Assembly (NCBI GenBank): GCA_905182565.1
Contig: CAJJCB010000026.1
Span: 372,001-436,000 of the forward strand
Reading direction: 5' to 3'
Source: Acidimicrobiaceae bacterium
GTDB lineage: Bacteria; Actinomycetota; Acidimicrobiia; Acidimicrobiales; Poriferisodalaceae
Length of the DNA: 64,000 bases
Shown: positions 34,528 to 40,841 of the stretch, one piece after another
Layout: each line of letters opens with the position of its first letter
How positions within the stretch are numbered: the stretch's first letter is position 1
Notes under the pieces: generated by a model
Told to the model about the DNA's origin: nothing
Database searches by the model: none
Seen by the model: the letters and a program-made list of their open reading frames with translations, nothing else
Position numbers and translations under genes: made by a program

Positions 34528-35514
34528 TTAAGCCAGAGTGGACAAAGTGACTGCGAAATCTCCAGCGCTATCAGTCCAAAAATTTCGGATTGTGAGTCCT
34601 GCGGAGGCCAGTTCTTGTTCGATGCCCTCTGGGCGAAACTTGGCGCTGATTTCAGTCCTCATTATCTCGTTCTTGAGAAAATTAACTTTTAAATCAAGCT
34701 TTTCAATATGAATTTGTTGATCGCTGCGGCTTCTTAAGCCGATATCTATCCATTCTCGGTCGGTATCGAATTGAGCGACGTGATCAAATTTTTCAGTGTC
34801 AAAGTTGGCGCCAAGATTTTTGTTAAGAACTGAAAGAATATTTTTGTTAAATGCTGCTGTAACACCGTCTGGATCGTTGTACGCAAGCTCCAGACGGGGA
34901 ATTTCTTTCACTAAGTCTGTTCCGAGCAAAAGAGAATCTCCACTCTTGAATTGGGCCGTAAGGCCAGATAAAAATCTTTGTCGAGCTTCTGGCTCGAAGT
35001 TGCCGATTGTCCCGCCCAAGAAGATGAATAAACGCTTCCCTGATTGTGGGACAGCATCTAAATGATGATCGAAATCACCAACTATGGCTCGAACCTTTAC
35101 GTTTGGGTACCGCTGTTTAATTTGTTTAGCGGAGCTTAGGAGAATTTCTTCGCTGACATCGAAGGCCGTAAAGGAGTTGAGTTGGCCCGCTGATGCAAAC
35201 GCGTCGAGGATAGATCTGGTTTTGTCTGAAGAACCCGATCCTAATTCGATTAAGTGATCTGCTTCAGAAATTTCGGCAATCTTGACTGCCTGAATATTTA
35301 AAATTTCTCGCTCTGCTTCGGTGGGGTAGTACTCGCTGAGTTGAGTTATTTTGTCAAAGAGTTCGCTGCCTGCCTCATCGTAGAACCATTTGGGAGGTAG
35401 CGACTTCTTAGCCTTGGTGATACCCATGCGTATGTCGGTAGCGAGTGAACGGCTAATCCATTCCTCGTCAAGGCGGAGATCTACGGTGAATCCCTCTTGT
35501 TCTTGGTCCATCAT
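34528..35514 (-). CDS. egtD: L-histidine N-alpha-methyltransferase EgtD
   Basis: First enzyme of ergothioneine synthesis, trimethylating histidine to hercynine using SAM. The 328-residue protein begins with the family pattern LATDIRMGITKAKKSLPPKWFYDEAGSELF (in part), has SAM-binding LIELGSGSSDKTRSIL, FLGGTIGNFEP and YNDPDGVTAAFNKN, and ends in FWTDSAGDFAV. It overlaps egtB by four bases, so both are one operon (egtB first). Ergothioneine is a thiol antioxidant found widely in actinobacteria. Identity very secure. Confidence 0.95.
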   Translation of the reverse strand: MMDQEQEGFTVDLRLDEEWISRSLATDIRMGITKAKKSLPPKWFYDEAGSELFDKITQLSEYYPTEAEREILNIQAVKIAEISEADHLIELGSGSSDKTRSILDAFASAGQLNSFTAFDVSEEILLSSAKQIKQRYPNVKVRAIVGDFDHHLDAVPQSGKRLFIFLGGTIGNFEPEARQRFLSGLTAQFKSGDSLLLGTDLVKEIPRLELAYNDPDGVTAAFNKNILSVLNKNLGANFDTEKFDHVAQFDTDREWIDIGLRSRSDQQIHIEKLDLKVNFLKNEIMRTEISAKFRPEGIEQELASAGLTIRNFWTDSAGDFAVTLSTLA

Positions 35515-36794
35515 GTTTCATCCTTGGCTAAACGTAAACCCGAAAACATCCAACGGGAGTGGGGAGGAAAGAAGTTTCTGTAGGTAAGCCTCATATGGTC
35601 CTGGGGGGTTGCGCACGAACCGCCTCGCAAAACCATTTGATTTACCATAAATTTTCCGTTGTATTCCCCGACTGCGCCAGGTGCTGCTGAGAAACCTGGG
35701 TAAGCAACGTAAGGGCTTGCGGTCCATTCCCAAAGGTCACCGAAAATCTGTTTCAGTTTAAGTGGGTCATCCTGAGCGGGTAAGGGGTCAAAAAACGAAT
35801 TGGTGCTGAAATTTCCTGTTAGTTCTAAGTTGCGAGCGGCATGCTCCCACTCAGTTTCTAAGGGAAGTCTTGCTCCATACCAGCGAGCGAAGGCATCGGC
35901 TTCGTAGTAAGAGATGTGGGCGACCGGCATGTCTGGATTTAATTTAGTTTGGCCAGATAGAGTGAAGATCTGCCAATTTTTGTTAGCGGTCTGTGACCAG
36001 TAAGCCGGGCTATCCCAGCCAGCGCTCTTAACGGTTTGCCATCCTTCGCTTAGCCATAGCTCAGACTTTTGGTAACCCCCACTTTCAATGAAACCTAGCC
36101 ACTCGCCACAGGTAATGAGACGATCAGCGATGTTGAACGATTGAATTAGAACTTCGTGGTTGGGTCCTTCGTTGTCGAAAGAAAAACTTTCTAGCCCATG
36201 TCCTATTCTCGTGAGTTCTCTTGGGTAGTGAACCCAATTAAGACCAGGTTCTGAGTGGGTTTGAGTGGCTACCTCGAAAGCAGAGGTGGTGAGGTAGGCC
36301 GGCGCGAGCGGATTCAAAGATAATGCGTGCTTAATATCCATGAGAATAAGCTCTTGATGCTGTTGCTCATGGTGTAATCCGAGCTCAATTAAGTTAAGAA
36401 TTTTTGTGTCAGTTGTTTCGCTGAGCGTATACAAAAATGACTCCATCGATTGGTCGATGGCTTGACGGTATTCAGAAATTTCTTCAATGGTGGGGCGTGA
36501 TAGTAGACCGCGATTAGATCGAGGATGTCGGTCTCCAACTGCTTCGTAGTAAGAATTGAAAAGGTAGTTGTACATTGGATGGTGAGATTTATAGTTATTC
36601 TGAAAAGCGCATAAGACAAAGGTTTCGAAGAACCAAGTTACATGTGCCCGGTGCCATTTAGTTGGCGAAGTATCAGGCATGGATTGAATAGTTTGGTCCT
36701 CGGCTCCTAGCGGAGTTGCTAGAGTTTCCGTAAATTTTCTTACTGCCCGGTACCGCTCTAGTAAGTCAGCTACCTGAGAATTAGACTGAGACAT
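35511..36794 (-). CDS. egtB: Ergothioneine synthase EgtB (hercynine sulfoxide synthase)
   Basis: Non-heme iron sulfoxide synthase joining hercynine to a cysteine-type thiol with oxygen. The 427-residue protein has an N-terminal DinB-like iron domain with the histidine in WHRAHVTWFFETF and the HxxxHxE-type motif HHEQQHQE, then a formylglycine-generating-enzyme-like sulfatase domain (about 205-427) with EWEHAARN and WEWTASPY and terminal LRGGSCATPQDHMRLTYRNFF. No egtA, egtC or egtE gene is visible beside it; this fits either distant genes or the cysteine-using type of pathway, which cannot be told from sequence alone. egtD follows, overlapping by four bases. Confidence 0.94.
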   Translation of the reverse strand: MSQSNSQVADLLERYRAVRKFTETLATPLGAEDQTIQSMPDTSPTKWHRAHVTWFFETFVLCAFQNNYKSHHPMYNYLFNSYYEAVGDRHPRSNRGLLSRPTIEEISEYRQAIDQSMESFLYTLSETTDTKILNLIELGLHHEQQHQELILMDIKHALSLNPLAPAYLTTSAFEVATQTHSEPGLNWVHYPRELTRIGHGLESFSFDNEGPNHEVLIQSFNIADRLITCGEWLGFIESGGYQKSELWLSEGWQTVKSAGWDSPAYWSQTANKNWQIFTLSGQTKLNPDMPVAHISYYEADAFARWYGARLPLETEWEHAARNLELTGNFSTNSFFDPLPAQDDPLKLKQIFGDLWEWTASPYVAYPGFSAAPGAVGEYNGKFMVNQMVLRGGSCATPQDHMRLTYRNFFPPHSRWMFSGLRLAKDET

Positions 36795-36932: not shown

Positions 36933-37571
36933 CTAGTTTTCGTTCGACTCAATTTCTCGATAGTGAGCAAGGGCTTTCTTGTAGTGGTCTATTTCAACAG
37001 CGCCAGAAATTAGAAATTTATTGTCAATTACTACAGCGGGGACACCATTGACACCGCTGCTTAAAGCTTCGTTGTGTTCAGCGAATATTTGAGTCTCAAA
37101 TATTTCTTTGTTGGCTTTTAAAGTTTCTTCAAAAATGTGCTTGTCGATGTCGACTTCGTGAGCAAGATTTAGGAGGACGTCAGAATCTGAAATATCCCGA
37201 TTCTCGGTGAAGTAAGCTCGGAGCATCTGGTGGTGGTATCGGCGCCATGCGGCTTCCCCAAATGTGGCTGCGGTTTTGCCCGCTACTGCTGCTGGTAGCG
37301 AATGTGATGGTGGAGGGTTTTCGCCAGACCACGGGGTGCTGAATTTGGCGAGTGGTTCAAGAGATGCGGGCCTTTCCCAGCTTTTTGTATATTCAGCGAA
37401 TTCTGCCTTATCTCTCAGCTCAGATTGAGGCCGCAATAAAAATGACTTCCATTGGACGGTTATGTTGTCACCCTCTTGTCGAACTAATTCATCGAGACGC
37501 ACGGTCCCAACCCAACACCAAGGTCACAGGTAATCTGACCATACGGTTATCTGTACTGATTCTAGAGGCAT
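36933..37571 (-). CDS. FrnE/DsbA-like oxidoreductase with in-frame UGA at the first active-site Cys (probable selenoprotein, UPWC)
   Basis: Read from ATG 37569-37571, the frame gives ITVWSDYL, then TGA (37524-37526), then PWCWVGTVRLDELV, and runs to a stop at 36933. Skipping the TGA yields a 212-residue FrnE-type thioredoxin-fold protein, in which TGA (residue 16) occupies the first Cys of CxxC and Cys19 the second. Everything downstream is intact (HSLPAAVAGK, the insertion helix region, GVNGVPAVVIDNKFLISGA with the cis-Pro loop). Conventional annotation would start at GTG 37502 and lose the active site. Sec insertion is therefore more likely than pseudogene. An upstream in-frame stop (TAG) precedes ATG 37569, so this is the only start. 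A weak hairpin lies downstream. It follows egtB with 138 bases between. Confidence 0.8.
37496..37519 (-). promoter_or_regulatory. Weak candidate SECIS hairpin after the FrnE-like UGA
   Basis: Counting from the base after UGA, nt 5-9 can pair with 24-28 (with three wobble pairs) and GGU (12-14) pairs with ACC (19-21) around a UGGG loop, with a 2x2 internal loop. This has the length and offset of a bacterial SECIS but is thermodynamically weak. Offered only as a candidate. Confidence 0.3.
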
Positions 37572-38140: not shown

Positions 38141-39244
38141 TTAGGGCGAAGTTAGCGCATCATCGCATGAGCCGGAGCCTAATCCGGACCCGGGGTTGTA
38201 GCGTCTAATTTTGTTTGCAGGGTCTGAAATGGTTTTGTCTGTCATGAGAAACGATTGAACACCAGCTGCTATGGCCTTTGAAATATTTTTAGCATAGGCA
38301 TCAGTTGCCATCAATTCAGCTTCAGAAGGATTTGATAGATAGCTAAGCTCTAAGAGAATAGAGGGTGTTGCAGGTCGTCTGATTATTCCGTAAGCGTCGC
38401 TGCCTTTTGAGTTGAGCACCTGAATAACTCCAGCATCGCTGCGCGAGACCCAGTTGATGTTTGTTATCGATGACAGGTAGGCGAAAGTTTTTTCGTAGAT
38501 TAATGCTCCCAGCCGTTGAGATCGATCGCTCTTTGACTGCACGTATACCTCGGTACCTGGCGTGCTGCTTGGATTGGCTGAAGGTGAGTTGTGATGTATA
38601 GATATGAGAGCATCGGCGTTTAACGCATCTGCTAACAGTGCCCGAATGGGCAGCAGCGACGCGTAGTTACCGGTTCGCGTTAAAACTGAACTTATGTTGA
38701 GTCTTTCTAGCTCTAGTTGCGTGGCCAAAGCAATCGAAAGATTTATGTCGCTTTCTTTAAGACCTGTTCTGCTTACCGCACCGGGATCTTTCCGGCCTCC
38801 ATGGCCTGGATCCAAAACGATTTGAGTTCTGGTGATTGGTTGTCCTTCTGGGACTAGTACCTGGTTACCACATGGGCTTCGAACTAGAAATCCTGCAGCC
38901 GACTGATCAAGTAGTTCTGCAGTAACCCCAGACTTTGTGATGATAATCCCTGATTTTGTGGCGGTGTCACGGATTGCTGAAGTCGTTGGAGTCGTTGGAG
39001 TCGTTGGAGTCGTTGGAGTCGTTGGAGTCGTTGAAGTCGTTGGAGTCGTTGGAGTCGTTGAAGTCGTTGAAGTCGTTGAAGTCGTTGAAGTCGCGACAGC
39101 GTTACGGATTGACGGCGACAAGGTGGTTGTTGACTCGCCGGACTGTCTAAACGTTTCGGCTGGTTTCGCTGTCTGTTCAAAGGAACTCGAACCGCAGCCG
39201 ATGGCAAGAGAGCACGCTAGGAGCAAACAAATGGTTTTTGACAC
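38141..39244 (-). CDS. N-acetylmuramoyl-L-alanine amidase (Amidase_3) lipoprotein with Thr-rich linker
   Basis: Zinc amidase that cleaves the amide bond between MurNAc and the peptide stem in peptidoglycan. The 367-residue protein starts with a lipoprotein signal (LLLACSLAIGC), then a low-complexity Thr/Ser/Pro linker (about 50-90), then the Amidase_3 domain (about 140-345): zinc ligand in DPGHGG, glutamate in TGLKESD, SIHHNS, and catalytic glutamate in LLELSYLSN. The linker is encoded by tandem 9-base repeats and is probably a flexible or glycosylated stalk through the cell wall, and its length is likely variable between strains. It may act downstream of FtsEX, encoded at 15-16 kb, but that is speculation. 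Confidence 0.9.
   Translation of the reverse strand: MSKTICLLLACSLAIGCGSSSFEQTAKPAETFRQSGESTTTLSPSIRNAVATSTTSTTSTTSTTPTTPTTSTTPTTPTTPTTPTTPTTSAIRDTATKSGIIITKSGVTAELLDQSAAGFLVRSPCGNQVLVPEGQPITRTQIVLDPGHGGRKDPGAVSRTGLKESDINLSIALATQLELERLNISSVLTRTGNYASLLPIRALLADALNADALISIHHNSPSANPSSTPGTEVYVQSKSDRSQRLGALIYEKTFAYLSSITNINWVSRSDAGVIQVLNSKGSDAYGIIRRPATPSILLELSYLSNPSEAELMATDAYAKNISKAIAAGVQSFLMTDKTISDPANKIRRYNPGSGLGSGSCDDALTSP
38979..39093 (-). repeat. Tandem 9-bp repeat encoding the Thr-Thr-Pro/Ser linker
   Basis: About 12-13 near-identical copies of a 9-base unit (plus strand gtcgttgga, with gtcgttgaa variants) fill this stretch in frame with the amidase gene. Each unit encodes Thr-Thr-Pro or Thr-Thr-Ser. 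Such perfect repeats are prone to slippage, and each gain or loss keeps the frame. Confidence 0.9.
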
Positions 39245-39380: not shown

Positions 39381-40841
39381 TTACCTCAGAGGGGAAAGAA
39401 TCAGATCGGCATGTATCAGAGGCATCGCTACGGTCGCCTCATCGCCGATTACCTCAACGCTAGCGCTTTCGTTACCTGCTATCTGCCAACGGCCAGGCAT
39501 TAAACCGCTTACTTTAAATCTCGTTACGGCCCGTGGGTCGGGTTGATTTGGAGAAGTTCGAAGGTGCAGCTCACCGTCTACCCATTCTGCTCTGGTGAAA
39601 GCCATCGTCGGGAAATCTACTTCAGTGATTTGAGGGCAGACTTCTAATGGCTTCTCAGAGAGAGCAGTCCATAGACCCGGACCTGATGCTTCCGCAGCTG
39701 CGAGAAACGCGTTGAATTGCCCTCTGGGGTAGTCTTCGTTGAGTCCTAGTCCCCAAGTGAACTCACCGAGACCAGTGTCCCATGTTGGCTCATATGAGTA
39801 CTCGATAGCTTCGGCGAGTTTTTTTTCCAGGTCTTTCATTTCCCACTCGCGAGCCAGAACTAGCGAAGAACCGTATGCGCGACTGGGTTTGAGGGGAAGT
39901 CGAATGTTTGAATTTAGGCCTAAGGAATCACAACCAGCTTGAAACAAGCGCTTAGCGTCAATTGGCATTTGTGGAGCGGCGTAATAAGCAGTAGTTAGAG
40001 CCGCTGCCACTGGCAATCGATGGTGGATATCTAATTGAGGATCATAATAGAATGTGGTGGATGTTGGGGCATCAGGGCTAGCTAGATCCAGATACTGCTC
40101 CCGGGCGTATTGCCACCAGGGCTCAAAAGCCTGTTCGTGATAGTTGGTGTCATAACGATTATCGTGAAGTCTCAGACCGAGACCTGCTCCAGCCAGTCAG
40201 AATGGCCAAATTTTTGTATTCTCTCAGTGGCAACCTATGGGGGCTGCTAGCCATTGCTGACATAAGTGCTCTGCAATCTCGGAATGAGTCCAGGTGAATG
40301 AGTTGTCACTATCGCGAATCATTTGAAATGGCTGGTTCCACCTGTCATCGGGGTCAATCATAGAGCGGATTCCGAGCAGCACTAGAAAAAATCCCTTATA
40401 GAAAAGCATTCCGTCTGCTGCAACTGGGTCGATCTGCACTCCCCACGGGGCTGTGCCGTTGGCAGTCCATCCGGGAGCATCATAGTTCCCCCACAATTCA
40501 GGTGGTATGAACAACTTGTAGATATCTGGGTAGTCACCGCGATCAGGGTCATGTCCGAACTGAGTCAGCCAGTCAGAAGCAGACCACCAACACAGGTGAC
40601 GTTCAATTAACTGATCTAAAATTTTTACGTATTGCTCTGTCCAAGCAGGAGTTCGTTGCGCCATGAGGCCCATAGCGTAGGAAGAATCAACTAAATCAAA
40701 ACGGTGCCAGCTTGCCATTGGAGGATCGGATCTGTCGTCCCAATGAGGGTGCGGCTTACCGCTGCGACTCCAATCATCTTTGGTGTGAGCTTTGCGGTTG
40801 AGGTATCGCAACCATCCCAGTGATCGATCTGAAAGTTCCAC
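39381..40841 (-). CDS. Linalool dehydratase/isomerase-like protein with two in-frame UGA codons (probable double selenoprotein)
   Basis: Two same-frame open stretches join into one 486-codon gene, starting GTG 40841, if TGA at 40224-40226 (codon 206) and TGA at 40197-40199 (codon 215) are read through. The bridge reads IGCH-TGA-ENTKIWPF-TGA-LAGAGLGLRLHD. The N-terminal half shows the LDI pattern (RTPAWTEQY, GWTANGTAPWG, DPVAADGMLFYKGF), and the C-terminal part continues without break (AYGSSLVLAREW). The two TGAs are nine residues apart, the spacing I recall for active-site Cys171 and Cys180 of Castellaniella LDI. No other stop or frameshift is present in 1461 bases. A strong SECIS-like hairpin follows the second TGA. 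LDI interconverts monoterpene alcohols; the substrate here is unknown, and the KGH histidine is replaced by Phe. Confidence 0.8.
40167..40185 (-). promoter_or_regulatory. Strong bacterial-SECIS-like hairpin after the second UGA
   Basis: On the minus strand AGGUCUC (40185-40179) pairs with GAGACUU (40173-40167), 7 bp with one G-U, around the loop GGUCU (40178-40174). GGUCUG occupies nt 19-24 after UGA, the same offset and sequence as the apical loop of the E. coli fdhF SECIS as I recall it. This is the main structural support for selenocysteine insertion in the LDI-like gene. Confidence 0.75.
40191..40207 (-). promoter_or_regulatory. Second small hairpin after the first UGA, with the second UGA in its loop
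   Basis: GGCCA (40207-40203) pairs with UGGCU (40195-40191) around UUCUGAC, so UGA2 sits in the loop. It begins 17 bases after UGA1. It might help UGA1, but its loop lacks the guanine-uracil signature of the other hairpin, and it cannot coexist with a ribosome at UGA2. Role undetermined. Confidence 0.35.

Follow-up and report, generated by a model that had tools for sequence, protein, structure and literature searches.

Our results favor the interpretation that a gene for a DsbA/FrnE-like protein in the window (the whole stretch of 64,000 nucleotides analyzed here) is a genuine selenoprotein gene, in which an in-frame UGA is read as selenocysteine (Sec) at a DsbA/FrnE-type active site. From the sequence comparisons presented below, we place the probability of this reading at about 96%. 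The gene would belong to a known class of selenoproteins, since DsbA-like forms with a UxxC motif have been reported since 2005. Standard gene calling truncates the FrnE-like selenoprotein insofar as the catalytic motif is lost and the start is put inside the loop of the SECIS-like hairpin. The clade appears to keep Sec over many genera, and one family holds fairly close pairs of UGA and Cys forms. Such pairs offer a natural comparison of the gain and loss of the SECIS element in step with the codon, and this comparison should help to annotate selenoproteins in actinobacterial genomes from metagenomes. The features discussed are collected in Table 1.

Table 1. Features of the window and related loci elsewhere in the host genome (G000).
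Feature	Position	Strand	Details
DsbA/FrnE-like CDS, predicted selenoprotein	36933..37571	minus	212 aa, ATG start, TAG stop, predicted Sec at residue 16 (UPWC)
UGA, predicted Sec codon	37524..37526	minus	At the first Cys of CxxC; 24/24 family orthologues have TGA
GTG that pipelines would pick as start	37500..37502	minus	Inside the apical loop of the SECIS-like hairpin; unconserved
SECIS-like hairpin	37491..37511	minus	8-bp stem GUUGGGAC/GUCUCGAU, loop CGUGC, 20 nt between UGA and loop
EgtB (ergothioneine biosynthesis), downstream neighbor	35511..36794	minus	Assigned by curated profile score
EgtD, L-histidine N(alpha)-methyltransferase	34528..35514	minus	Overlaps 3' end of egtB
Ldi-family ORF (PF18566, linalool dehydratase/isomerase)	39381-40841	minus	Two UGAs, codons 206 and 215
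selD, predicted selenoprotein	L019 (G000:C12:21547-22488)		HGAG-U-ACK; hairpin loop CGUGU 32 nt after UGA
Second, distant DsbA/FrnE-like paralogue, same genome	L095 (G000:C17:74858-75415)		UPWC; SECIS-like hairpin, loop CGUGC 24 nt after UGA

The reading frame and the conservation of its UGA

The frame that runs from 37571 to 36933 on the minus strand reads MPLESVQITVWSDYL-U-PWCWVGTVRLDEL... and contains a single in-frame TGA, at codon 16, in the context VWSDYL-U-PWC. The preliminary description had followed this frame upstream from the GTG that a pipeline would choose, through one TGA to an ATG, and had placed the UGA exactly at the first Cys of a CxxC motif. Both claims are borne out, and in the alignment to FrnE homologues that it had proposed as a check, UPWC falls on the CPWC of FrnE. 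A TAG is found two codons 5' of the ATG (TAG ACC ATG), and ATG, GTG and TTG are all absent between the ATG at 37571-37569 and the TGA. Consequently, this ATG is the sole conventional start before the UGA.

As had been anticipated for an annotation pipeline, the list of open reading frames under the standard code contains only a 189-aa frame beginning at GTG 37502, and from this it could be hypothesized that the gene really starts there and that the TGA belongs to upstream sequence that is untranslated or has decayed. We give this hypothesis almost no weight. A product starting at the GTG would be devoid of the catalytic motif and of the first beta strand. Moreover, the GTG is located inside the hairpin loop, and the codon at its position is GTA, GTC or GTT in 9 of the 24 orthologues, so that it is unconserved as a start. 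The residues before the TGA (S-D-Y/F-L) are kept among the family orthologues while their codons vary synonymously, which indicates that translation is already in this frame 5' of the TGA. Finally, all 24 host-family orthologues with a complete active site (47-100% identity) carry TGA at the active-site codon, with no spectrum of stop codons, and this comparison refutes a start at GTG 37502.

The orthologues bearing the TGA cover nearly all genera of the host family that have an orthologue. Elsewhere in the class the TGA is kept in families f7, f22 and f40; f36 is mixed, with TGA as well as Cys forms. Four changes between U and C labels were needed on a 53-row tree, which contained two well-supported U/C sister pairs within f36, the U rows of which include a paralogue clade. 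Homologues from Myxococcota and Armatimonadota, and some from the same class, have Cys at the UGA position, as would be expected if a Cys codon (TGC or TGT) had been misread as TGA or if the gene were a decaying pseudogene. The probability of either is practically nil: the same TGA recurs in more than 30 genomes, which are independent assemblies of many species, and this recurrence refutes both explanations, while the amino-acid sequence and the downstream frame are intact in the orthologues. Most genomes of the host family also contain paralogues with a single TGA, such as the distant one listed in Table 1. A search of plasmids returned distant homologues only, at less than 60% identity.

Selenocysteine machinery and the SECIS-like hairpin

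Two further lines of evidence support Sec insertion. First, the host genome (2.65 Mb, 95.6% complete) encodes the machinery. The test for selABCD suggested in the preliminary description recovered selA (392 bits, cut-off 268) with selB directly after it (271 bits, cut-off 242), selD (348 bits, cut-off 125), and a tRNA-Sec (65.5 bits, gathering threshold 47) whose anticodon, TCA, reads UGA. The selD gene has an in-frame TGA in its own active site. Sec use looks common in the actinobacterial class of the host, given that selA was found in 201 of 296 sampled genomes, and for the same reason the co-occurrence of orthologue and selA across the class says little. One genome with the UGA form (G226, 79% complete) had no selA or selB above cut-off.

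Altered genetic codes and UGA-reading tRNAs exist in other bacteria, and on this general ground the UGA could have been recoded to an ordinary amino acid (Trp or Gly, as in codes 4 and 25) or could be subject to simple readthrough. We regard this as highly improbable, since the host genome has a UGA-reading tRNA-Sec together with the full Sec pathway, ordinary open reading frames of the window require no sense reading of TGA, and the position is occupied by Cys, not by Trp or Gly, in all non-UGA homologues seen.

Secondly, the UGA is followed by a hairpin. Bacterial SECIS elements were defined here as hairpins just downstream of the UGA whose small apical loop contains a guanosine (PMC1088965), and a search after position 37524, likewise suggested earlier, found such a structure at 37511-37491. 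It is conserved across the UGA forms, with 7-8 bp and a 5-nt NGUNC loop 20 nt after the UGA. For 23 sequences of the family RNAalifold predicted this stem as well, with 97.5% of the stem cells paired, compared with 31-58% for slid versions. The family set of 23 sequences, taken alone, contained no double compensatory changes and showed covariation not above that of shuffles. In a wider set of 21 UGA sequences we found 9 double-change cells and a covariation of 0.286, values that none of 500 shuffles reached in a test that is inflated by relatedness. The pairs changed on both sides in this set went from G-C to C-G and from G-C to A-U, and the loop positions G25-U26 were invariant. In three Cys homologues of the host class only 52% of the stem cells were paired; judged by this predicted pairing, the closest Cys forms have a degraded hairpin.

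Codon usage around the stem points in the same direction. Gly18 is encoded by GGG in 24 of 24 orthologues, whereas GGG accounts for 23% of the gene's other Gly codons; Arg21 is always CGY and Leu22 always CTY. These three positions, at which the stem requires particular bases, show a restricted synonymous choice. A stem mismatch was present in five more distant UGA forms (L097, L098, L100, L103 and L108), and the 41-nt region had a minimum-energy z-score of only -0.26. An Rfam scan of the UGA region gave no SECIS family over threshold and one chance match only.

Hairpins with a 5-nt NGUNN loop also follow the UGA of selD, that of the DsbA paralogue and, with the loop GGUCU, the second UGA of a nearby gene of the Ldi family. 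Only 3 of the 2373 TGAs on both strands of the window were followed by a hairpin whose stem had at least 7 bp and whose NGUNN loop lay at 15-36 nt; two of the three were the UGA of the FrnE-like gene and the Ldi gene's second UGA. The search pattern was chosen once the candidates were known, and the scan is thus supportive rather than a formal test.

Protein family and likely activity

The proposed FrnE/DsbA-like identity of the protein was supported by family profiles. With Cys substituted for Sec, residues 7-202 matched the Pfam DSBA family PF01323 with 93.7 bits (cut-off 25.6) and an E-value of 1.6e-26. The best solved relatives are FrnE structures (E-values of 2.4e-15 by sequence and 1.4e-24 by profile), and the profile match to 5cp1/5cnw covers positions 2-187 of the 187 in the profile. 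When a small set of homologues was aligned, D-Y-L-C-P-W-C-W and the V-P of GVP were among the invariant columns, the latter presumably corresponding to the cis-Pro site typical of DsbA-fold proteins. The Rcas_1661 family of (seleno)lipoproteins (NF041057, DsbG-like) was considered and rejected, as it scored 27.7 bits against a curated cut-off of 190.

FrnE of Deinococcus radiodurans (5cnw, 5cp1) and SCO1869 of Streptomyces (3gl5), the closest relatives of known structure, share with the window protein the DsbA-type Trx fold (by profile), a CPWC in the equivalent position of the WSD..CPWC segment, and a conserved G-V-P in the C-terminal part. Both of these proteins have Cys where the window protein would have Sec. 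Apart from U16, C19 is the sole Cys of the window protein, and inspection of the sequence found no C-terminal CX4C motif. In D. radiodurans FrnE this motif serves regeneration, whereas the window protein is without it, like the FrnE of S. roseofulvus (PMC8945050). Some FrnE proteins, including this founding member and that of D. maricopensis, do not contain CX4C (PMC8945050), and the motif is therefore not strictly defining for FrnE. FrnE proteins are predicted to be cytoplasmic (PMC8945050). Inspection of MPLESVQITVWSDYL revealed no N-terminal signal peptide: there is no hydrophobic leader, and 15 residues precede the Sec.

DsbA of E. coli belongs to the same superfamily and follows the same catalytic logic, and is a periplasmic, disulfide-forming protein with a CPHC motif; the window protein differs from it in having UPWC and, by inspection, no signal peptide. 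Taken together, we consider it likely that the FrnE-like protein works as a cytoplasmic thiol-disulfide oxidoreductase. Reduction or isomerization of cytoplasmic disulfides is likelier than periplasmic disulfide formation, given that no hydrophobic leader is found at the N-terminus, and regeneration is probably achieved by an external reductant since CX4C is missing. Mechanistically, SelB carrying Sec-tRNA would bind the hairpin and insert Sec at the UGA, where it would replace the N-terminal nucleophilic Cys of CPWC. The Sec16 selenolate would then attack substrate disulfides, or be oxidized by them, and Cys19 would resolve the mixed selenide-sulfide, such that the enzyme could cycle between an oxidized U-C bond and a reduced UH/CH pair. 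Compared with a Cys counterpart, the Sec enzyme may perhaps be faster or more resistant to oxidation.

That UxxC forms of DsbA-like proteins were already known from marine bacteria, as the preliminary description stated, agrees with the literature. Nine sequences of COG2761 were reported from the Sargasso Sea in 2005 (PMC1088965), 63 sequences of 'DsbA 1' and other DsbA forms were reported from GOS (PMC2398784), and a 'DsbA-like protein form 1' (PF01323) is listed in a 2026 inventory (PMC13188914). Going by the descriptions available in these sources, form 1 and the window protein have in common PF01323, Sec as first residue of CxxC, a hairpin directly downstream, and an origin in environmental, often marine, bacteria. 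The known UxxC forms come mainly from metagenomic reads, whereas the present one is found in a near-complete actinobacterial genome, with Sec machinery, a clade of orthologues and a covarying hairpin. A literature search combining 'FrnE' and 'selenoprotein' returned no relevant paper, the name used in the literature being DsbA-like.

Gene neighborhood and a second UGA gene

Directly downstream of the FrnE-like gene, on the same strand, lie egtB and egtD, an adjacency seen in the host genus only. The first of these neighbors was also compared with SenA (selenoneine synthase); it scored 338 against the SenA cut-off of 420 and 562 against the EgtB cut-off of 360, which assigns the enzyme to ergothioneine and not to selenoneine. 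This arrangement, together with an Ldi-family gene 1.8 kb upstream, could suggest that the FrnE-like protein serves ergothioneine metabolism or the nearby putative Ldi-family selenoprotein as a dedicated partner and is not a general thiol-disulfide enzyme. We assign such a role a very low probability, because the neighbors differ in 18 other genomes of the family, where egtBD and Ldi are both absent within 20 kb or less of the orthologue, and because many genomes with an orthologue have no Ldi match. A broader proposal is that the clade is a separate FrnE subfamily of Acidimicrobiia-type actinobacteria that depends stably on selenium and acts on a specialized small-molecule or protein substrate (linked, perhaps, to ergothioneine redox chemistry through egtB-egtD in the host genus), and not a general disulfide reductase; this we consider doubtful. 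With egtB-egtD adjacent only in the host genus and other neighbors elsewhere, the surroundings leave the substrate of the FrnE-like protein unfixed.

The Ldi-family gene was the only other conserved gene interrupted by UGA found nearby. The preliminary description had spoken of a second UGA-containing redox gene within about 3 kb. A second UGA gene is indeed present at 1.8 kb, but its family is that of the Ldi hydratase/isomerase and not a redox family. A profile alignment, with a weak E-value of 0.02, aligns both UGAs with the segment CEPDNYFVQC in linalool dehydratase/isomerase, whose catalytic Cys residues are 170 and 179 (PMC6600392); the spacing of the two UGAs equals that of these residues. 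Relatives display U-x8-U in 5 genomes, C-x8-U at 9 loci (∼50% identity) and C-x8-C in one paralogue. An Ldi-type selenoprotein family was not found in the accessible part of the 2026 inventory (PMC13188914), term search included, and a literature search joining both terms gave no match. The gene is a candidate for a new selenoprotein family, with two putative catalytic Sec residues in a non-redox enzyme, and it is more novel than the gene of the FrnE-like selenoprotein.

In an Amidase_3 gene of the window, positions 38937-39207 encode a repeat-rich Thr/Pro linker (TTP/TTS), and long spurious open reading frames occur there in other frames.
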